Origin: Streptomyces venezuelae
GTDB taxonomy: Bacteria > Actinomycetota > Actinomycetes > Streptomycetales > Streptomycetaceae
DNA: 64,000 bases
Reading direction: 5' to 3'
Assembly: GCF_008642335.1 (NCBI RefSeq)
Contig: NZ_CP029191.1
Coordinates: 186,001 to 250,000 of the forward strand
The notes beneath the pieces are model-generated. The model had not been told where the DNA came from. It saw only the letters and a list, made by a program, of their open reading frames with translations, and did no database searches. Position numbers and translations under genes: made by a program. This document shows, piece after piece, positions 5,137 through 23,714 of this stretch (the stretch's first letter is position 1; each line of letters starts with the position of its first letter).

Positions 5137-5804
5137 GCCTCACCCTGACCGACATCACCCTCACCTACCCCGACGGCGACACGCGCCTGACCGCCCTCGA
5201 CCGCGTCAGCCTCGACGTACCGAAGGGCAGCCTGACCACCGTCCTCGGCCCGTCCGGTTCCGGCAAGTCCAGCCTCCTCGCGGTCGCCGCCACGCTCGTC
5301 ACCCCCGACGCCGGGACCGTCATCGTCGACGGCACGCCCACCACCGGCCTGTCCCGCCGTGAGCTCACCGCTCTGCGCCGCCGCCGGATCGGCGTCGTCT
5401 TCCAGCAGCCGAACCTGCTGCCCTCCCTCACCGCCGTCGAACAGCTGCAGGTCATGGCGGAGATCGACGGCCGCAGGGCCCGTACCGCGCGGGACCGGGC
5501 CGCGGAGCTGCTCGACGCCGTCGGACTCACCGGTCAGGCGGACCGCCGCCCGCACCAGCTCTCCGGTGGCCAGCGGCAGCGCGTCAACATCGCCCGCGCC
5601 CTGATGAACGAGCCCACGGTCCTCCTGGTCGACGAGCCGACCAGCGCCCTCGACCACGAACGCGGCGCCGCCGTCATCGACCTGATCGCCCGCCTCACCC
5701 ACCGGCGCGCCACCGCGACCGTCCTGGTGACGCACGACCGCACGCATCTCACCGCCGCCGACCGGATGGCGGAGGTCCGCGACGGGCGCCTGTCCCCGGC
5801 CTGA
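5133..5804 (+). CDS. ABC transporter ATP-binding protein (LolD/MacB-like)
   Basis: This 223-residue ATPase has all nucleotide-binding motifs: Walker A (GPSGSGKSS), Q loop ([10 protein letters not shown]), signature ([15 protein letters not shown]), Walker B ([11 protein letters not shown]) and the switch His (VLVTHD). Its short length and the LPSLTAVEQ element place it with the LolD/MacB-type ATPases that pair with FtsX-like permeases. It overlaps the permease stop by four bases, so the two subunits should be made together as a 2:2 exporter. It is the last gene of this two-gene unit; the next gene starts about 100 bases later with its own ribosome binding site. Confidence 0.95.
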
Positions 5805-5907
5805 AGGAACCCGTCGGCCGATTGTCACGCGGGTGGCTAGTCCCCCACGCGTTCCTGCCCGACGGTGGTCCCTCCGAACGGTGTGGACCGAGTGGAAGGG
5901 GCCAGCG

Positions 5908-7086
5908 GTGAGGCGAAGACGATTTGTGGCGGGAACGATCGGCACGCTCTCAGGGATCGCTCTCGGTGCGGGCACGGCCCGAGCCGACGCGGAGGCACCC
6001 CGGTCGCGGGGCCCGCGGAACGTACGGCCCGGGTCGTGGGGCCCGCGGAACGCACAGGACTGGCGGGCCGTCCCGGCACCGGGCAGCACCCCCGCCGCAC
6101 AGCTGCGCCGCATCTCCGCCGCCGGGGCGGGCCTCGCCTGGGCCGTCGGTGAGGAGGGGCTCGCCGGGCCCTCGCGCGGGCGGGCATTGGCCATGGTGTG
6201 GAACGGCAGTGCCTGGTCGAAGACCGATCTGTCGCACCTGGACTACAGCGGGCGGCTGAGCGATGTCGCGGGCGTCTGCGCAACCGCCGCGTGGAGCGTC
6301 GGCCTGCCCACGGGTGACGCGAGTCCGCTGCTGCGCTGGGACGGGTCCACCTGGCGCGAGGCCTCCTTTCCCGGGCGGGGCGAGGCCGGTGTCAGGCTCG
6401 AGTCGGTGGCGGTCGGCGCCGACCGGCGGGTGTGGATCTGCGGCGCCCGGGGCGGCGCAGCCCGGTTGCTGCTCGGCGACGGCAGGCGCTGGACCTGGCT
6501 CGACCCGCTGCCGGTCGCGAGCGCCAACCTGTACCGGGTCGTCCTGCGCGCGCCGAACGAGGTGTGGGTCAGCGGCGACCAGGCCTCCGGCGGCGGCTGG
6601 TCGGGCCTCGTGGCCCGCTGGAACGGCTCGTGGACCGTCCTGCCGCCGATCACGGGCGCCCGCCTCGGTATCGGCGACGTGCACGCGGCCGCCGCGGACG
6701 ACGTATGGGCCGTCGGCACGGAGGCCGGCGTCGGCGGACCACCGGGACGCCCCGGCAACCCGGCCCTCGCGCACTGGGACGGCACGGCGTGGACCCGGGT
6801 CCAGCCGGGCTTCACCGTCGGGTCGCTGTCCGGGATCGCGGGTGACGCGCAGGGCCGTGCCGCGTGGATATCGGGGTGGAACCACCAGGACCAGAGCCGC
6901 AGCACGTATCTGCGCCGGGACGGCGCCGGCTGGACCGTCGTCCGCGGCCCGGCGGGCGGGGCGACGGCTCCGTACCTGAATGACGTGACCGCCGTGCCCG
7001 GCACCAACGGCTTCTGGTCGGTCGGCATGACCAGCCCGGTGCCGGCCCCGCCGACCGAGGCGTACACGGAACGGCTCGACGGCTGA
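5908..7086 (+). CDS. Secreted WDG-repeat (beta-propeller-like) protein, paralogue 1
   Basis: This 392-residue protein starts with an Arg-rich signal sequence (RRRRFVAGTIGTLSGIALG, ending near ARADA) compatible with Tat or Sec export. The body repeats a short pattern, an Ala-Trp-x-Val-Gly strand followed by a Trp-Asp-Gly-x-x-Trp turn (for example LLRWDGSTW, HWDGTAW, WAVGTEAG), typical of six- or seven-bladed propellers. No catalytic motif is visible. I chose the GTG at 5908, with GGAAGGGG just upstream; in-frame starts at 5833 and 5881 would put unusual residues ahead of the signal. Two related genes lie in tandem at 47240-49500. Function unknown; a cell-surface binding or scaffold role is a guess. 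Confidence 0.75.
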   Translation: MRRRRFVAGTIGTLSGIALGAGTARADAEAPRSRGPRNVRPGSWGPRNAQDWRAVPAPGSTPAAQLRRISAAGAGLAWAVGEEGLAGPSRGRALAMVWNGSAWSKTDLSHLDYSGRLSDVAGVCATAAWSVGLPTGDASPLLRWDGSTWREASFPGRGEAGVRLESVAVGADRRVWICGARGGAARLLLGDGRRWTWLDPLPVASANLYRVVLRAPNEVWVSGDQASGGGWSGLVARWNGSWTVLPPITGARLGIGDVHAAAADDVWAVGTEAGVGGPPGRPGNPALAHWDGTAWTRVQPGFTVGSLSGIAGDAQGRAAWISGWNHQDQSRSTYLRRDGAGWTVVRGPAGGATAPYLNDVTAVPGTNGFWSVGMTSPVPAPPTEAYTERLDG

Positions 7087-15446: not shown

Positions 15447-16580
15447 TCAGAACGTCTCGACCCGTACGCGTTCGCTCGCCTTGTCCGACAGGAACGCCGC
15501 CACCGCCCGCCCCTCCTCCGCGACCTCCGCCCGCTCCGCGCGGGAGAAGCGCCGCAGCGGTGTCGCGACCACGGTGTCCTTCTCCACGGTCCACGTCGCC
15601 GCGACCCGACCGTCGACCAGGACGACCCGTTCCCCGGCGACCGACAGTCCGCGGTGGGCGTCGTCGATGATCCGGCCGCGGTCCTGGTAGCCGAGGATCG
15701 CGTTGTCGAACGCGGGCAGGAACCGGACCGGCGCCGGGGTGTCGGGGTCCGGGCGGGGCGCGTCGGGCAGGTCGAGCAGTTCACGGCCGCGCTCGTCGCG
15801 GAAGGAGACGAGGTCCGGGCGGGCGGCGGCGACCGCGGCGGGGAGTCCGGCGAGACCGCTCCAGGCGCGCAGGTCGGCCGTGGCGGCGGGGCCGAACGCG
15901 GCGAGGTAGCGGCGCAGGAGCGCCTGCCCCACGGGGTCGGAGCCGTCCGGGGACGAGGTGTTCGGGGAGGGCGAGGACGGGTCGGGTTCCGGTTCCTCCC
16001 CCAGCCACGTGGCGAGCGGGAGGTTGCGTACGCCTCCCTTCGTCCGCCACAGGCCCCGTGGCGGCAGCTGCACCATGGGCACGAGCGCGGCGATCAGCAT
16101 CTCCCCCAGCGCCCGCGCCGGCACCCCCGGCCAGCGGTCGGCGACCGCCCGCGTCAGTTCGGCCATGGTGCGCGGCTCGCCGTCGGCCATCGTCTCCCGG
16201 CCCGCCGCGGCGAGTGCGTCGAGGTCCACGCCGTCGAGCTCGCGGCGATACACGCCGAGCACCCGTTGGCGCAGCATCGCGTCGTGCCGGGCGCGCCAGG
16301 CCAGCACGTCATCGGCGGTGACGAGATGGACCGTACGGCGCATGAGGTGCGTACGGACCACGCGCCGCTCGACGAGCAGGTCGGAGAGGGTGCCCGGCTC
16401 GAAGGCGCGCAGCCGCGACCAGAGCCCCACGAACGGTTCCTGCGGCTCCTGCGCCTGGAGCCCGCAGAGGTGGGCGACCGCGTCGAGGGCCGGCAGGTCG
16501 GCGCGGTCGAGGAGCAGTTGCCGTGCGAGCGTCGCGCGGTTCAGTGTTCGGGTGTCGAGGACGGTCACGTTCGCGGACAT
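15447..16580 (-). CDS. AlkZ-like DNA glycosylase (winged-helix, HTH_42 family)
   Basis: The 377-residue protein belongs to the HTH_42/AlkZ family: LARQLLLDR, then the glycosylase motif Q-A-Q in LCGLQAQEPQEP, SRLRAFEPG, VRTHLMRRTVHLV and a late RGRIIDDAHRGLSVAGERVVLVDG. In AlkZ of azinomycin producers and in E. coli YcaQ, the Q-x-Q/Q-x-D residues remove alkylated bases and unhook crosslinks. Many Streptomyces have several paralogues, some for self-protection against a DNA-alkylating metabolite. The ATG start at 16580 gives the usual N terminus. It stands alone upstream of the RiPP operon, with no direct link visible. Confidence 0.82.
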   Translation of the reverse strand: MSANVTVLDTRTLNRATLARQLLLDRADLPALDAVAHLCGLQAQEPQEPFVGLWSRLRAFEPGTLSDLLVERRVVRTHLMRRTVHLVTADDVLAWRARHDAMLRQRVLGVYRRELDGVDLDALAAAGRETMADGEPRTMAELTRAVADRWPGVPARALGEMLIAALVPMVQLPPRGLWRTKGGVRNLPLATWLGEEPEPDPSSPSPNTSSPDGSDPVGQALLRRYLAAFGPAATADLRAWSGLAGLPAAVAAARPDLVSFRDERGRELLDLPDAPRPDPDTPAPVRFLPAFDNAILGYQDRGRIIDDAHRGLSVAGERVVLVDGRVAATWTVEKDTVVATPLRRFSRAERAEVAEEGRAVAAFLSDKASERVRVETF

Positions 16581-16695: not shown

Positions 16696-17355
16696 TCAGA
16701 TCGCGATCGACTGCTGGAGCCAGCGGCTGACGCGGTACGGCAGCCACCACGCGTACGGGCCGATGTCCAGGACGAGTTGTTCGGCGCGGAAGTCGTCCAG
16801 GACCGCCTTCGGGACGGTGTCGGCGGGGGCGCCGTGGTCGAGGCGGTCGATGGTCGTCTCGTACTCGGGTTCGTCGGCGGTGAAGCGGCGCAGCTCGCCC
16901 CACCTGCGGTCGCGGATCTGGATGAAGCCCGGACCCTTGCGCCACAGGCATTTGCACAGGTAGTGGCCGCGCCGCCAGGTGTTCAGCGCGTCCTCGGCGC
17001 CGTCCGGGCCGAGGAGCACCGCGGGCGGCTGGAGGTGGCTGAGCATGCGCCACCCGTCCGCCGAGTCCGGGTCGAGCCGCAGTTTCCACTCGACCATGAC
17101 GGCCCGCGCGGTCAGGTCCCTGACGAGGCCGAGTCCGTGCAGCGCGGCGGCCGGGTCCGCGGTGGCCGTGAGGTCGACGGGGTCGGGCAGGCGTACCCGG
17201 CGCGCACCGAGCTGCCAGAGTCGTTCGGCGTGCCCGCCGGGCGGTCCTGGCAGGGGCACCTCGCCGAGGAACATGCCGGGCAGCTCGCACGCGGCGGGGT
17301 CGTAGTCGCGCCAGGCGAGGAGGGTCGGCGTCGGCGTGGCGAGGGTCGCGGTCAC
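16696..17355 (-). CDS. DUF5825 family protein, RiPP operon partner
   Basis: This 219-residue soluble protein matches what I know of DUF5825, a family found almost only next to rSAM_ocin_1-type radical SAM enzymes. It has no catalytic motif I can name; visible conserved-looking elements are WRDYDPAACELPGMFLGEVP at the N terminus and KCLWRKGPGFIQIRDRRWGEL (a few Trp/Arg-rich strands) in the second half. The GTG start at 17355 overlaps the radical SAM stop (GTGA), so the two are translationally coupled and probably act together, for example in substrate delivery to the radical SAM enzyme. It is the last gene of the RiPP operon. Confidence 0.75.
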   Translation of the reverse strand: MTATLATPTPTLLAWRDYDPAACELPGMFLGEVPLPGPPGGHAERLWQLGARRVRLPDPVDLTATADPAAALHGLGLVRDLTARAVMVEWKLRLDPDSADGWRMLSHLQPPAVLLGPDGAEDALNTWRRGHYLCKCLWRKGPGFIQIRDRRWGELRRFTADEPEYETTIDRLDHGAPADTVPKAVLDDFRAEQLVLDIGPYAWWLPYRVSRWLQQSIAI

Positions 17356-19304
17356 TGTGCTCCTCCGGATCGGGCGGGCTCGGGCACGGGCACGGACGCG
17401 GGCTCCGGCGCGAGTGCCGTCTCCTCCGCGTGGATGTGCCGCATGAAGTCGAGGCGGAGCAGGTCCTCGTTGACCGCGGCGGGTGCGATGTGGACGTACT
17501 GGCCCGCGTCGGAGAAGACGATGCCGAGGGCGAGCCAGGAGTCGAGGAGTTCCTGGACCCTGGCCTCGTCGAGGGTCATGTCGGAGACCCGGGCGGCGGC
17601 CTTCCGCAGGAGTGCCTGGACGCTGTGCGGCTGGTCGAGGAGGCGGAAGACGGCCAGCTCGAAGGGGTCGGTGAGCTCCATGGCGCGCCAGGAGAAGGTG
17701 CGCCGGCGGCTGACGAGGACGATGCGGTCGCCGTGGTCGTCGTGGGTGAGGCGGGCGTCGGTGTGGTGTCTGCGCCAGTCGGCGAGTGCTTCGTTGAGCG
17801 CCTTCACGGTGGTCTCGCCGATGCCGCGGGCCGGTGCCTCGAAGACGTACGCCATGCCGTACAGCTCTTCTTCGGGCAGGTCGTACGTGAAGCGGTAGTG
17901 GCCTTCGGGGCGCAGGCCGGTGAAGCCCAGTTCGGGGCGCTCGAAGTAGGGGCTGAAGCGTTCGATGGCGATGCGGGCGGAGAGGTCGACCGGTGGGTCG
18001 AGGTGTTCGAGTGCGGGGATCTGCGCGATGACGGGGTCGTAGTCCTCGGCGCTCTCGCCGGGGAAGCCGTGGAGGTAGTTCCAGGCGACGGAGAGGCCCG
18101 TCTCGGCGCCGTCGCGGAGCATCCGGACGTTCTGGCAGCCGCTCACGCCTTTGTCCATCAGGTCGAGGACGCGGCTGTTGAGGCTCTCGATGCCGGGCTG
18201 TACGTAGATGAGTCCCGCGTCGGCGAGGGTGCGCAGCTGGCTGCGCTTCATGTTGGCCTTGATCTCGATGTGCAGGCGCAGGTCGTAGCCGCTCTCGATG
18301 ATGCGGGGCAGCACGGTGGTGAGGTAGCGCATGTCGAGGATGTTGTCGACGACGTACATGTCCAGGACCTTGTGGCGGCGGGCCAGGTCCATGATCTCTT
18401 CGTAGAAGGTGTCCGGGCTCTTGGAGCGGAACTCCATGAACGAGCCGTTGAGGCCGCAGAACGTGCAGTGGTGTTTCTCGCCCCACCAGCAGCCGCGTGC
18501 GCCTTCGACGACGAGTTTGGGCTCGACCCAGTTGCGGGCCACGGACGCGGCGAGGCGCTCGAAGTAGCCGCTGTAGTCGGGCGGCAGGATCGCGGCGGGC
18601 GGCAGCGGCCGGGTGGCCATGGGGTTGGCGACACTCTTGCCCGTGGCGTCGCGGTGGCAGAGCCCCGGGATGTCGTCGAGCGGGGTTCTCTCCGTGAGCG
18701 CGGTGAGCAGGGCGGGGAAGGCGGCCTCGCCCTCGCCGCGTACGACGTGGTCGACGAAGTCGAAGTTGCGGTGCACGGCGGCGCCCTGTTCGCCGTCGCA
18801 GTTGGCGCCGCCCATGACGGTCACGAGGTGCGGGGCGAGCTCTTTGACGCGGCGGGCGCAGGCGAGGGCGGCGGTGTTCTGCTGGAAGGTGGAGGTGAAG
18901 CCGACGACGTCGGGTTCGCTCGCCACGACCTGCCGGGCGATCATCTCGACGAACTCGGGGACGATCCGGTGCAGTGCGCGCGTCATCTTCATCCGCGCGG
19001 CCTTCAGCTTGCCGGTCATGACGGTGGTGAACTCGTCGTCCCGCCACTCCGGGTCGTCGTAGAGGGCGGAGGAGAACACCCAGTCGCCGCAGCCCATGAA
19101 GTACGAGGAGAGCGCGTAGTACTCGTAGTCGTCACCGGTGAACTCGGTGCGTTCGGTGATCCAGTCGGTGAAGGCGAGGTTGGCGTGCAGCACCTCGGCG
19201 GTTGCGCCGGGGACGCGCTCGTCCACGCTCCGTTTGAGGATGCCCAGGGCGAGCGACGGAAGGTCGATGGGCGACCAGGGCATGTTGACCAGCAGTACGC
19301 GCAC
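17352..19304 (-). CDS. B12-binding radical SAM RiPP maturase (rSAM_ocin_1 type)
   Basis: This 650-residue enzyme has an N-terminal Rossmann-like cobalamin-binding domain (MRVLLVNMPWSPIDLPSLAL..., VMGGANCDGEQG) and a radical SAM barrel whose [4Fe-4S] ligands are in the variant spacing C272-x7-C280-x2-C283 (GCWWGEKHHCTFCGLN), characteristic of the 'RiPP maturation radical SAM protein 1' group. A C-terminal extension of about 200 residues includes a winged-helix-like part (LTDPFELAVFRLLDQPHSVQ), which may bind the leader peptide. The expected chemistry is radical modification, often C-methylation, of the precursor encoded just upstream at 19374-19502. ATG start; a strong hairpin lies in its 70-base leader. 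Confidence 0.92.
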   Translation of the reverse strand: MRVLLVNMPWSPIDLPSLALGILKRSVDERVPGATAEVLHANLAFTDWITERTEFTGDDYEYYALSSYFMGCGDWVFSSALYDDPEWRDDEFTTVMTGKLKAARMKMTRALHRIVPEFVEMIARQVVASEPDVVGFTSTFQQNTAALACARRVKELAPHLVTVMGGANCDGEQGAAVHRNFDFVDHVVRGEGEAAFPALLTALTERTPLDDIPGLCHRDATGKSVANPMATRPLPPAAILPPDYSGYFERLAASVARNWVEPKLVVEGARGCWWGEKHHCTFCGLNGSFMEFRSKSPDTFYEEIMDLARRHKVLDMYVVDNILDMRYLTTVLPRIIESGYDLRLHIEIKANMKRSQLRTLADAGLIYVQPGIESLNSRVLDLMDKGVSGCQNVRMLRDGAETGLSVAWNYLHGFPGESAEDYDPVIAQIPALEHLDPPVDLSARIAIERFSPYFERPELGFTGLRPEGHYRFTYDLPEEELYGMAYVFEAPARGIGETTVKALNEALADWRRHHTDARLTHDDHGDRIVLVSRRRTFSWRAMELTDPFELAVFRLLDQPHSVQALLRKAAARVSDMTLDEARVQELLDSWLALGIVFSDAGQYVHIAPAAVNEDLLRLDFMRHIHAEETALAPEPASVPVPEPARSGGAQ

Positions 19305-19330
19305 GGGCGCTCCTCCGGGGGGTGTGAGGG

Positions 19331-19367
19331 CCGGCCGGCCCCCGGGGTGCGCCCGGGGGCCGACCGG
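19331..19367 (-). promoter_or_regulatory. Attenuator hairpin between RiPP precursor and radical SAM gene
   Basis: Bases 19331-19346 and 19352-19367 pair over 16 positions with one mismatch (GGCCCCCGGG core) around a 5-base loop. The hairpin lies just behind the precursor stop and ahead of the radical SAM ribosome site and has no T-run, so it would act as a partial terminator or mRNA stabiliser and keep precursor levels above enzyme levels, a common RiPP arrangement. Confidence 0.65.
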
Positions 19368-19373
19368 TGGGGA

Positions 19374-19502
19374 TCAGTCCTCGACGGTGTCTTCGCCGTC
19401 CTCGGCGTTGCGGAACGGGACGGTGACCGTGATGCCGACGCTCGGCTTCCGGTTCGTCTCGTCCTCCGCGAGCGGGTCGTTGTGGATGACGTCCTTCTGC
19501 AT
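19374..19502 (-). CDS. RiPP precursor peptide, 42 residues
   Basis: A short reading frame starts at the ATG at 19502 with GAGGAGAG in ideal position. The peptide begins MQKDVIHNDPLAEDE, continues with a short basic linker (TNRK) and a beta-prone hydrophobic stretch PSVGITVTVPFRN (residues 20-32), and ends in a very acidic tail (AEDGEDTVED). No Cys is present, and the only aromatic is Phe30, so sulfur crosslinks are excluded. The most plausible modified residues are the Val/Ile/Thr/Pro of the hydrophobic part. It lies 30 bases after the S9 peptidase gene and 69 bases before the radical SAM gene on the same strand. The precursor role is inferred from size, position and ribosome site. Confidence 0.8.
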   Translation of the reverse strand: MQKDVIHNDPLAEDETNRKPSVGITVTVPFRNAEDGEDTVED

Positions 19503-19532
19503 GGCTCTCTCCTCTCGGTAGGTCGCGCTGAT

Positions 19533-21317
19533 TCAGTGCTGGACGGTGTGGTGCATCGACCCGTCACCTTGCGGAGCGGGGCGTCTGGGTGGGCGGAGCT
19601 CCCTGTCGAGGAAGAGCACCGCGCGGCGCAGTACGGTCATGTGGTCGCCGCCGTCGTAGCCGTCGTGCCCGGAGTCCAGCCAGAGGGACTCGTGCCGGGC
19701 GCCGGCCGTGTCGAGGGCGGCGAGGTAGGAACGGACCTGCTGCGCCGGGCACTTGGTGTCGTGCGTGGCGGCGACGACGAGCAGCGGGTCCCGTACGCGG
19801 GCGGCGTACCGGATCGGCGAGCTGTGCGCGTACCGCGCGGGCACCTGGTCGGGTGTGCCGCCGAACAGCCGCTCGTCCAGGGCGCGCAGGGCCACGGTGC
19901 CCGCGGCGTGGGCGGCGGCGTAGTCGGCGACGGGCTTGACGGCGACGCCCGCCCGCCACAGGCCGGGCCGGGTGCCGAGGGCGAGCAGGACGAGGTAGCC
20001 GCCCCAGGAGGTGCCCCACAGGCCGGTCGCGTCCGGGCGGATCAGGCCGCGTGCGGTGAGGTCGGCGTGGACGGCGGCGAGGTCGGCGACCTGGGTGTGG
20101 CCGACGCCGTCGCGGTACGCGCGCTGCCAGTGGGGTCCGTAGCCGGTGGAGCCGCGGTAGTTGACGCGGGCGACGGCGAAGCCGGAGGCGACGAGGGAGT
20201 GCACGGTGCCGTCGTAGGCGTCCCTGTCGTGGTCGGCGGGGCCGCCGTGGACGAGGAACACGGCGGGGTGCGGTCCCGTGCCGTCCTCGGGGAGGCTCAG
20301 CAGGGTGTGCACGGGGCCGTCGGGGCCGGGGGTGCGGATGTCCCGCACGGTGCCGGGGACATGGCCTGCGACGGTGCCGAGAGGTGGCAGTGGGGTGCCG
20401 GCGCTGGAGGTCATCGTCGGCGGGTGCGTGGTGTCGGTCCAGAGGGTGTGGAGGTCGCCGCCGGGGCGCGGGGCGGCGTCGAGGAGGGTGCCGGGCGGGG
20501 TCGGTACGGGGGTGAGGGTGCGGGTCTTCAGGTGGGCGCGGTGGAGCAGGGAGCGGCCGTGGCGGTCCTGGCGGATCAGGACGGAGTGGCCGTCCGGGTA
20601 CCAGCGGGCGGTGATCTGGGTGTCGAAGGCGCACCAGTCGTGGGTGACGGGGCCGGTGGCGGGGGTCCAGGTGGCGAGCAGGTAGCGGTCCTCGTGCTCG
20701 CGGACGAGGAGGAGCGTGGGGCGTGGCCCGGTGGGTGCGAAGCCGAGGGCCCAGAGCCTGCCGTGCGGGCCGTCGCCGGGCAGGACGGCGAGCACGGTTC
20801 CGTCGGGCGTGAGGAGGGTGACGGCGGCGGGCGAGTCGGCGGTGCGGGTGAGGGCCAGGAGGTCGCCGCCCGGGGCGAGTCCGGCGAGGGCGGCGAGTCC
20901 TTCGACGCGCGTCACCTCGCGGCCGGGGCCGCCGCGTGTGCCGATGCGGATGGTGGTGCTGTCGTCGAGTCCGATGCCGATGGTGGCGAGGGGGCCGTCG
21001 GTGACGGCGAGGCCGCGGGCGGTGCCGTCCGGGACGCCGGTGAGTCCTGGCCTGTCGGGTCCGCCGGTGAAGGCCTGGTGGCGCCATCGGCCGACGCCGC
21101 GGGCGTCCTCGTCGAACCACCAGACCCGTGCGTCCCGGTCGATGGCGCCGTGCAGGGTGCCGCCCGGCCGGTCGGTGACGCGTCGGGAGCGGCGGGTCGC
21201 GGCGTCCCAGGTGCAGATCTCGCAGCGGCCCTCGGCGTCGGCGGTGAAGACCATCCGGCGCGGGTCGGCGGCGCACACCTCGGGCAGGGCGGCGCGGTAG
21301 ACCTGGAAGCGGCTCAT
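19533..21317 (-). CDS. S9-family (prolyl oligopeptidase) serine peptidase of the RiPP operon
   Basis: This 594-residue protein has an N-terminal beta-propeller (about residues 1-340, with strands such as ARVWWFDED and LLALTR) and a C-terminal alpha/beta-hydrolase domain with the triad Ser437 (LWGTSWGGY), Asp520 (ATHDTK) and His551 (SGHDGYDG), as well as the HGGPADHD oxyanion loop. No signal peptide is seen, so it works in the cytoplasm. S9 enzymes cut short peptides, often after Pro; in this operon it is the candidate leader or follower protease for the 42-residue precursor, which has Pro at positions 10, 20 and 29. The ATG at 21317 overlaps the MFS stop (ATGA). Confidence 0.9.
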   Translation of the reverse strand: MSRFQVYRAALPEVCAADPRRMVFTADAEGRCEICTWDAATRRSRRVTDRPGGTLHGAIDRDARVWWFDEDARGVGRWRHQAFTGGPDRPGLTGVPDGTARGLAVTDGPLATIGIGLDDSTTIRIGTRGGPGREVTRVEGLAALAGLAPGGDLLALTRTADSPAAVTLLTPDGTVLAVLPGDGPHGRLWALGFAPTGPRPTLLLVREHEDRYLLATWTPATGPVTHDWCAFDTQITARWYPDGHSVLIRQDRHGRSLLHRAHLKTRTLTPVPTPPGTLLDAAPRPGGDLHTLWTDTTHPPTMTSSAGTPLPPLGTVAGHVPGTVRDIRTPGPDGPVHTLLSLPEDGTGPHPAVFLVHGGPADHDRDAYDGTVHSLVASGFAVARVNYRGSTGYGPHWQRAYRDGVGHTQVADLAAVHADLTARGLIRPDATGLWGTSWGGYLVLLALGTRPGLWRAGVAVKPVADYAAAHAAGTVALRALDERLFGGTPDQVPARYAHSSPIRYAARVRDPLLVVAATHDTKCPAQQVRSYLAALDTAGARHESLWLDSGHDGYDGGDHMTVLRRAVLFLDRELRPPRRPAPQGDGSMHHTVQH

Positions 21318-22528
21318 GCGGCGGCCTCCGCGAGGGCGGCGCGCCGCGTGGTGTGCACGGCGAGCAGGCCGAGCAGCGCGGCGCAGACGAGTGCGGGTGC
21401 GGCGGTGCCGATCCGGTCGGCGCACAGTCCGGCGAGGACGGGGGCGAGAGCGGCGGCGCCGCCGGACGCCGTCGCGAGGACCGCGCCGACGCGCGCCTGC
21501 ACGGAGGGTTCCGTGACGAGGAGGGCGCGTGCCTGGAGGACGACGGCGGGCAGCGGCACGAGCAGGCAGACCGCGCCGAGCAGCAGCCCGTACGTCCAGG
21601 GCCCGGCGGCGGTGGCGAGGGCCGCGGTGAGCGGTACGAGCAGCCAGGTCACGCCGACGAGGACCCGGGCGGCGCCGACCCGCACGGCGACGCGGGGCGC
21701 GGCGAGCGACCCGGCGAGACCGGCGGCGCCGGAGACCGCGAGGACGACGCCCAGCGGGAGGGCGCCCGAGCCGGAGCGTTCCAGGGCGAAGACGGCGGCG
21801 TAGTAGAGCGCGACGGCGACGCCGTTGACGAGGGCGATCCACACCAGGACGAGGCGCAGGAGCGGTTGCCGCCGCACGAGGTGCAGCCCGGCGGCGGCTT
21901 CACGGAGCAGCCCTCCCCCGTGGGGCTGCTCCGCGGCTTTCAGTTCGGCCCGCATCCCGCGTACGCAGCAGGCGGCGACGGCGTACGAGACGGCGTCGGC
22001 CAGGAAGGGCAGCGCACGCGAGAGCTGGTAGGCGGCGCCTCCGACGGCGGGTCCGAGGATGAGGGCGCCCTGGTCGGCGGCGGCGAGGCGGGCGACGGCG
22101 CGGGGCTGGTCGTCGGGCGGGCAGACCAGGGCGACCGTGCCGCGCGATGCGGCGTCGTGCGTGGCGGTGGCGAAGCGTTCGACGAGGACGGCGCCCAGGA
22201 GGTGCGGGAGCGTGAGGTGGCCGAGGGCGAGCACCAGGGCGACGGAGCCCATGGCGAGCGCGGAGACGACGGCGGACCAGAACATGATCGTCTTGCGGGC
22301 GCCGCGGTCGGCCGGGACGGCGGCGAGCGGTCCCAGCAGGATCCCGGCGGCCAGCGAGAGGCCGGCGACGAGCCCCGCAGTCTGCGCGGAGTGACCGAGG
22401 GAGAGGAGCAACAGCGGGAGTACGACACCGGAGGCCTGGGTGCCGAGCGCGTCGGCCGCGTTGGCCCACCAGAAGAGCCGGAAGTCGCGGGCGGAGGTGC
22501 CTGCGGAAGAGAGGGACGACGACTCCAC
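21314..22528 (-). CDS. MFS transporter, putative exporter of the RiPP product
   Basis: This 404-residue membrane protein has twelve predicted spans with the enterobactin-exporter-like (MFS_3) look: SARDFRLFWWANAADALGTQ at the start and motif A-like PADRGARKTIMFW in the first loop. I chose the GTG at 22528, which has GGAGGAATTGC immediately upstream; the frame extends about 65 codons further but that part is low-quality coding sequence. It is the first gene of the RiPP operon, directly behind the promoter at 22603-22632, and is coupled to the peptidase by a 4-base overlap. Export of the mature peptide, and so self-protection, is the likely role. Confidence 0.85.
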   Translation of the reverse strand: MESSSLSSAGTSARDFRLFWWANAADALGTQASGVVLPLLLLSLGHSAQTAGLVAGLSLAAGILLGPLAAVPADRGARKTIMFWSAVVSALAMGSVALVLALGHLTLPHLLGAVLVERFATATHDAASRGTVALVCPPDDQPRAVARLAAADQGALILGPAVGGAAYQLSRALPFLADAVSYAVAACCVRGMRAELKAAEQPHGGGLLREAAAGLHLVRRQPLLRLVLVWIALVNGVAVALYYAAVFALERSGSGALPLGVVLAVSGAAGLAGSLAAPRVAVRVGAARVLVGVTWLLVPLTAALATAAGPWTYGLLLGAVCLLVPLPAVVLQARALLVTEPSVQARVGAVLATASGGAAALAPVLAGLCADRIGTAAPALVCAALLGLLAVHTTRRAALAEAAA

Positions 22529-22602
22529 GCAATTCCTCCATGAACATGAAGCTGCTGTGAAGAGAGGTGAAGAAAGTGGGATGGGAGTGAAACGAGAGCG
22601 GG

Positions 22603-22632
22603 ATCGTAGCCAGCGCCGCGAGCGGGCTACAA
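22603..22632 (-). promoter_or_regulatory. Promoter of the RiPP operon
   Basis: Reading on the minus strand, TTGTAG (22632-22627) and TACGAT (22608-22603) resemble vegetative -35 and -10 boxes with an 18-base spacer. They stand about 75 bases ahead of the MFS start codon, and no other promoter-like site is visible inside the operon. Confidence 0.5.
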
Positions 22633-22994
22633 GGTGCGGGGTCCGCTGTCCGAAAAGCGCAGTGGAATGGGCACAAGGCGGACTCCCGGCTCGGCCACAA
22701 GGGGAAGTTCGAGTTCCGCCAGGACGCACGTGACGGGTGGGACCAGAGGGGCGTCTGTGACGTGAGGGACGCCATGACGGACACGTACATCCATGTGCGA
22801 CAGAGGGTAATTACGTACGCAGACGCGCCCGTCTCCGGGACCGGAGGCGGGCGTGGTCGGAGCCGTCCCGTCCGGACTATGGCCGGTTCACGTCGATCCC
22901 GGTGGACGCGGCCCGGATCGCGGAGGTGTGTCCCATCGGCAACAGTGGGCACGAGGAGGGACGGATGACCGTACGGCCGGGGTGAGGACGAGCA
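22633..22994 (+). other. Leader region upstream of the MgtC gene
   Basis: These ~360 bases between the RiPP promoter and the MgtC start hold no gene. They contain AT-richer sequence around 22800 (GGTAATTACGTACGC) that could be a promoter, followed by ~190 bases able to form several hairpins (for example CCCA...TGGG near 22933). MgtC-type genes are often preceded by Mg-sensing leaders, but I do not recognise an M-box here. Confidence 0.3.
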
Positions 22995-23714
22995 ATGGAA
23001 CCGAGTGGCCAGGGATGGGTGCAGCTGGCCGAGTTCGCCGTGGCCTTCGGCCTGTCCGCCGCGATCGGCCTGGAACGTGAGATCCGACAGAAGGCGGCGG
23101 GGCTGCGGACCTACACCACCGTCGGCGTGGGCGCCGCGCTGTTCACCCTGGTCAGCAAGTACGGGTTCACGGACGTGCTCCAGTCCGGCACCGTCACCCT
23201 CGACCCGTCCCGGGTGGCCGCGCAGATCGTCTCCGGACTCGGCTTCATCGGCGCCGGCGTCATCTTCGTACAGCGGGGGTCCGTACAGGGCCTGACCACG
23301 GCGGCGACCATCTGGCTGACGGCCGCCGTGGGCTCCGCGGCGGCGGCCGGCCTGCCGCTGCTCGCGGTCCTCGCCACCGCCTCGTACTTCCTCGTCGCGT
23401 ACGCCGTCCGCCCCCTGGCCCGCCGCCTCTCGCTCCTGCGCTCGGTACCCGTCCACTACCGCATCACCTATCTCCAACGCCCGGGCCTGCTGCAGGACCT
23501 GTTCGCGGAGTGCACGCGCGCCGGCTTCGACATCGCCGAGGTGCGCACCCTCAGCGCCTCCGTCCCCAAGGGCGCCTACGGCGGCGAGACGGAGCACACG
23601 GTCGAGGTCCTCCTGGCCGTGGTGGGACGCGGCGACGGCGACGCGCTGACGGCGCGTTTCGTGGCGGTGGACGGGGTGGTGGCGTGCGCACGGCCCGGTT
23701 ACGGGGACGAGTGA
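22995..23714 (+). CDS. MgtC/SapB family membrane protein
   Basis: The 239-residue protein has the MgtC family pattern: four to five membrane spans in the first ~145 residues with AFGLSAAIGLEREIRQKAAGLRT, the conserved QIVSGLGFIGAGVIF and GLTTAATIWLTAAVG, and a soluble ACT-like C-terminal domain (about residues 150-235). MgtC proteins help cells grow at low magnesium and modulate the F-ATPase or membrane potential. ATG start with a weak ribosome site (GAGGACGAG). Single gene, convergent with the TetR gene that follows. Confidence 0.92.
   Translation: MEPSGQGWVQLAEFAVAFGLSAAIGLEREIRQKAAGLRTYTTVGVGAALFTLVSKYGFTDVLQSGTVTLDPSRVAAQIVSGLGFIGAGVIFVQRGSVQGLTTAATIWLTAAVGSAAAAGLPLLAVLATASYFLVAYAVRPLARRLSLLRSVPVHYRITYLQRPGLLQDLFAECTRAGFDIAEVRTLSASVPKGAYGGETEHTVEVLLAVVGRGDGDALTARFVAVDGVVACARPGYGDE

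Follow-up and report, generated by a model that had tools for sequence, protein, structure and literature searches.

We find that a 64,000-nucleotide stretch of the Streptomyces venezuelae genome (contig NZ_CP029191.1, positions 186,001 to 250,000; the window) carries, at 22528-16696 on its minus strand, a genuine five-gene operon for a ribosomally synthesized and post-translationally modified peptide (RiPP). Its genes, all in one direction, encode a major facilitator superfamily (MFS) transporter, an S9 peptidase, a 42-residue precursor peptide, a B12-binding radical S-adenosylmethionine (rSAM) enzyme and a DUF5825 protein. In all likelihood this is a pathway of the clavusporin type (mpc-like), with its chemistry assigned by analogy, and its product is probably a small carbon-methylated, surface-active peptide. 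Our assignment draws on the families of all five genes, the gene order shared by 49 related loci and S. clavuligerus, conserved prolines in the precursor, papers citing the clavusporin study, and the co-occurrence of DUF5825 with TIGR03975, the family of the rSAM enzyme. An earlier note on this stretch had called the operon uncharacterised; kinship with clavusporin makes its class a known one, so that description falls, while the note's preference for C-methylation over thioether or lanthionine chemistry is probably right, such activity being reported for a homologous enzyme pair. Going beyond the note are a leader motif, two prolines around the core, and a kinship between DUF5825 and the rSAM enzyme, from which we predict that DUF5825 may be a leader-binding half-enzyme arisen by partial duplication.

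The precursor, MQKDVIHNDPLAEDETNRKPSVGITVTVPFRNAEDGEDTVED, lacks Cys and, His7 aside, contains a single aromatic residue, Phe30, as the note had described. Its probable layout is a leader of about residues 1-20, a core, SVGITVTVP, at 21-29, and an acidic follower at 30-42. Scanning a genome collection for DUF5825 yielded 52 related loci, numbered here with L, all from named Streptomyces but for one Streptacidiphilus. The peptide was detected by tblastn in 49 of the 52, always between the peptidase and rSAM genes, which bears out the grouping of these genes as a RiPP operon; no match was found in L015 and L044, whose contigs start at the rSAM gene, or in L038. We counted 37 distinct precursors, including those of the window and S. 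clavuligerus, after setting aside L012 (where the gene runs into N), L046 (displaced frame), L062 (divergent) and L072 (spurious). Pro29, Arg31 and Ala33 are each present in 37/37 of these, positions 22, 24, 26 and 28 are Val or Ile in 37/37, and Pro20 is present in 36/37, the exception being L033. This last locus holds a tandem pair of precursors (5636-5935), both without Pro20 and the second also without Pro29.

The leader is shared more widely. We scanned 108 loci with two patterns (NDP and KKVVVRE-like) that were picked after the peptides had been seen; these loci are not independent, L060 and L061 being two S. clavuligerus records and L043 and L113 having contigs of equal length. A match was found on the sense strand in 84/108 loci (70 with the NDP pattern, 14 KKVVVRE-like) and on the antisense strand in none, so that by this measure too the peptide is kept where the rSAM and DUF5825 genes are kept. 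Matches occur in 66 of the 72 loci with a peptidase gene and in 18 of the 36 without one. The six unmatched peptidase-bearing loci are L012, L038, L046, L103, L106 and L148; a related peptide, MKRRSV(R/Q)NDPIS..., occurs in L103 and L106, and L148 and L038 have peptidase, rSAM and DUF5825 genes with no precursor found by leader motif (nor, in L038, by tblastn). That otherwise different peptides share a leader motif, M.K..V.NDP, suggests that they are recognised in a common way.

The closest match to the operon is found in S. clavuligerus. Searching plasmids with DUF5825 returned 20 Streptomyces records, 16 of which are S. clavuligerus at 72.7% identity, with an operon in the same order as that of the window: MFS, alpha/beta hydrolase, an unlisted peptide, "RiPP maturation radical SAM C-methyltransferase" and DUF5825. 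Its precursor, MQKDVIHNDPLAGDEENRKPSVGITITVPFRNAEDADED, has a near-identical core, SVGITITVP, the single difference within 21-29 being V26I, and the acidic tail of the window's peptide is three residues longer. The precursor gene (L060:5645-5761) is unlisted in the plasmid record, which lists its four neighbours; the gene table is incomplete. Clavusporin is known to us through papers citing the original report (Nat Chem Biol 2025), and we judged likeness to it through the S. clavuligerus operon rather than the published precursor. According to these sources, clavusporin comprises C-methylated peptides made with the help of a prolyl oligopeptidase and of a B12-rSAM/DUF5825 pair homologous to the one here; the oligopeptidase, MpcP, removes the leader (PMC12951456), B12-rSAM enzymes paired with DUF5825 are reported to C-methylate (PMC12257519), and the title of the clavusporin paper ties the product to surface activity, as a surfactant, and to development.

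By analogy, we propose the following pathway. The 42-residue precursor would be made and its leader, KDVIHNDPLA, bound, most likely by a RiPP recognition element (RRE)-like domain of DUF5825. DUF5825 would keep the peptide on the B12-rSAM enzyme, which, if it acts as in the homologous pair, would methylate carbon atoms in the core, a segment rich in Val, Ile and Thr. To judge by the two conserved prolines, SVGITVTVP would then be excised by the peptidase, with cuts after Pro20 and probably after Pro29 too, to leave a nonapeptide. The MFS protein would export this peptide, which outside the cell would probably serve as a surfactant aiding development, the role that its paper's title assigns to clavusporin.

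Three other readings of the peptide and its fate were weighed. To the reading of the 42-residue frame as a chance open reading frame (ORF) we give practically no credence: the frame is short and has no family model, and its counterpart is unlisted in the incomplete S. clavuligerus table, but its retention in 49 of 52 loci with a ribosome-binding site (RBS) and residue pattern, and the lack of antisense motif matches in the 108 scanned, already contradict chance at sequence level. A serious possibility, though short of even, is that the peptidase takes off the leader only, after Pro20, leaving a product that still carries Phe30 and some of the acidic tail, or one that other proteases trim. The available part of PMC12951456 mentions only leader removal by MpcP, and Pro29 is equalled in its invariance by Arg31 and Ala33; yet Pro29 never varies, whereas tail length and sequence do, and in L062, L095, L096 and L097, which have no such peptidase gene in the fetched stretch, the precursors stop at or near the aliphatic core, as in MEKTVVENDPQIDDPDSALVTVGVSVSF. 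It is improbable, finally, that the rSAM enzyme performs a cross-link, oxidation or epimerisation instead of C-methylation. A B12-rSAM enzyme of the pbs pathway does cross-link ortho-tyrosines, according to the part of PMC12257519 available, but C-methylation is what has been reported for the DUF5825-paired type found here, and the core at 21-29 has no aromatic residue.

Several observations weigh against our preferred assignment to a clavusporin-type pathway. Selection on the precursor codons is only moderate, with a median pairwise dN/dS of 0.39 over the first 31 codons (1231 pairs after a dS filter). Five of the seven nearest 42-mers have dS 0 and dN 0.02 to 0.05, and because dS is 0 the codons there give no sign of purifying selection. 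L033 is without Pro20, and no precursor was found in L038 by either search. Conservation is the one kind of evidence that points to a cut after Pro29, and we infer from the name that S. clavuligerus is the clavusporin producer.

Two tandem precursors were also seen 5' of the rSAM gene in L062 (5506-5869), L096 and L097; they share the NDP leader and stop at or near an aliphatic core (...VTVGVSVSF and ...VISVMVVVSF, for example); no prolyl-oligopeptidase gene was found within the stretch at these three loci.

The rSAM enzyme scores 624.8 bits against the TIGR03975 cut-off of 281.85, in agreement with its earlier naming as rSAM_ocin_1, and the three Cys of its C272-x7-C280-x2-C283 motif are invariant in a 41-row alignment (A2). 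Profile-profile comparison suggests homology between DUF5825 and the C-terminal half of this partner enzyme. Because earlier DUF5825 profiles had been iterated and may include rSAM pieces, we built clean alignments of 141 DUF5825 and 106 TIGR03975 sequences, leaving out the fused ORFs of L098, L099 and L108, any row containing unknown residues, and rSAM rows that were short. These matched with a probability of 95.1% (E 3e-8, score 66), DUF5825 columns 74-206 aligning in order with rSAM columns 393-605, and after a 60% redundancy filter (22 and 10 rows) with 95.9% (E 6e-9, score 71, 165 columns). Scores of controls were lower: 15.4 and 16.6 for reversed alignments, 24.9 for the best of 50 column shuffles, 21.6 for the peptidase and 13.9 for the MFS protein. 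When the profiles were divided, each half of DUF5825 found a single counterpart: its N-terminal half paired with the rSAM barrel part (42.9, E 1e-6) and its C-terminal half with the C-terminal part of the rSAM enzyme (43.6, E 4e-7), against scores of 11.6 to 19.8 for the four remaining pairings. Two other radical-SAM groups from the same loci, small at 6 and 5 sequences, score 9.5 to 17.5 against DUF5825 and 159 and 193 against TIGR03975. Together, these half-by-half matches and low scores make the relation look specific to the partner enzyme. Weighing against homology are two points: the E-values of profile-profile comparison apply to one comparison, and a profile of close DUF5825 relatives only (A1) failed to match the window's rSAM taken as one sequence (probability 0.1). 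Profile A1 also found no match among PDB sequences; the homology thus shows up only when both alignments are diverse.

The structural model of DUF5825 is confident and weakly resembles part of a radical-SAM barrel and an RRE; that of the rSAM enzyme, made with AlphaFold, is poor (pLDDT 56.8). Foldseek alone found no match for the DUF5825 model at E <= 0.001. In a second structural look the top two rows were an RRE with bound leader, and another RRE came fourth. From this model and the profile matches we predict that residues ~1-115 may derive from the last part of an rSAM barrel and that 116-219 may form an RRE-like domain. Pfam searches at E 10 returned neither RRE nor PqqD for DUF5825 or the rSAM enzyme, and none of the 141 DUF5825 sequences has an Fe-S motif (CxxxCxxC or Cx7CxxC).

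We therefore lean, without strong conviction, towards viewing the DUF5825 family as non-catalytic half-copies of rSAM_ocin_1, the outcome of a partial duplication that took in its C-terminal half: such copies would have kept the last barrel strands and the RRE-like domain, lost the B12 domain and Fe-S cluster, and would present the (K/R)xVVxNDP-type leader to the full enzyme, to which they would have been re-fused in places. As half-enzyme, DUF5825 may be expected to bind the leader peptide KDVIHNDPLAEDE. A rather unlikely alternative within the same pathway is that DUF5825 plays a structural or catalytic part, for example by closing the rSAM active site, with the rSAM C-terminal domain binding the leader. 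The RRE rows among the best of the second structural look speak against it, as does the fusion in L108, which retains only the RRE-like C-terminal part of DUF5825, as if that part were needed. Natural single-ORF rSAM-DUF5825 fusions occur at L098:6452-9031, L099:6399-8948 and L108:6925-9189. We did not find DUF5825 described as a radical-SAM half in print, among what were mostly titles and abstract openings, and the clavusporin paper may say so; the main text of two RRE papers (PMC12710340, PMC7470986) is without DUF5825 or PF19142.

The operon and its flanks are laid out in Table 1. Families, coordinates and tight packing are as the earlier note gave them, with an ATGA overlap joining the S9 peptidase and MFS genes and a GTGA overlap joining the DUF5825 and rSAM genes, and the promoter-like site lies exactly where the note had placed it. 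None of the five genes contains a TTA codon.

Table 1. Features of the operon and its flanks, in window coordinates.
Feature	Coordinates	Strand	Evidence
Promoter-like site TTGTAG-N18-TACGAT	22603..22632	-	pattern present at exactly these coordinates
MFS transporter, 404 residues, probable exporter	21314..22528	-	PF07690 86.7 bits, cut-off 33.4
S9 prolyl-oligopeptidase-type peptidase, 594 residues, probable leader and follower protease	19533..21317	-	PF00326 122 bits; GTSWGG nucleophile motif at residue 435
Precursor peptide, 42 residues	19374..19502	-	ATG downstream of AGGAGAG-type RBS; conserved in 49/52 loci
B12-binding radical SAM enzyme (rSAM_ocin_1), 650 residues	17352..19304	-	TIGR03975, PF02310, PF04055
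DUF5825 protein, 219 residues	16696..17355	-	PF19142 255 bits, cut-off 25
AlkZ-like gene, flank	15447-16580		
MgtC gene, divergent, other flank	22995-23714		

Both promoter boxes are retained, with a varied spacer, in L002, L003, L004, L005 and L022. A looser pattern was found 5' of the MFS gene in 7/50 relatives (two of the seven with other boxes) versus 2/2550 mononucleotide shuffles, counts that indicate conservation of the promoter-like site in the nearest clade only. A little 5' of the -35 box, at 22650-22660, lies GCGCTTTTCGG, conserved in the same five loci and possibly an operator. The AlkZ-like and MgtC flanks both adjoin the operon in only one of the 52 related loci, L002.

The operon is not rare in its genus. 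DUF5825 exceeds the cut-off in 90/392 Streptomyces genomes sampled (91 at E <= 0.001) and TIGR03975 is found at E <= 1e-80 in 99/392; both occur in 88 genomes, TIGR03975 alone in 11 and DUF5825 alone in three, of which one is below cut-off, one stop-interrupted and one a partial match. Across a phylum sample, DUF5825 was over cut-off in 4/396 genomes, all of this genus and including the window's own, which has one match to each family. Another type of peptide, for example MEIKKVVVREEQQSTGRRPAVLEKRPTR, accompanies rSAM and DUF5825 genes at L116 (7611-14422), L108, L114, L117, L119, L120, L123, L124, L126-L130 and L135; at L116, the sole one whose neighbours we examined, the pair is flanked by a PNKP-ligase-type gene before the rSAM gene and one for arginine deiminase (PF02274) after DUF5825. 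A DUF5825-like fragment, perhaps a remnant, lies on a Streptomyces plasmid at a locus without an rSAM match (L063:8132-8485), ~0.6 kb past genes for epsilon-poly-L-lysine synthase and an M1 metallopeptidase.

We suggest that, whereas the clavusporin-type class is already known, the origin of DUF5825 from its partner rSAM enzyme is the new proposal here: if true, it would explain their near-constant pairing and predict the place of leader binding. Genome mining by leader motif would also benefit, the motif already reaching precursors with quite different cores. Among the closest known systems are the radical SAM protein NifB (7jma, 7bi7, 7jmb) and the RREs of TbiB1 (5v1u, 5v1v) and ThcOx (5lq4), whose Pfam sequence models do not match DUF5825, a protein that would also carry a barrel-derived N-terminal half. 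Some biphenomycin-like, pbs-type pathways, with YHxYxY precursors, hold a second B12-rSAM enzyme beside a DUF5825 protein, according to the available part of PMC12257519; unlike these RiPPs, the operon has no MNIO (PF05114) among its five genes and no FHAFRF, FHTFMF or YHxYxY motif in its precursor. Poly-cyclopropylglycine RiPPs (PMC9062424) were considered and set aside. The precursor is without the repeat typical of such peptides. The clavusporin pathway is the one most like the window's operon, which has both the B12-rSAM and DUF5825 pair and an MpcP-like protease of the prolyl-oligopeptidase type (PF00326, GTSWGG).
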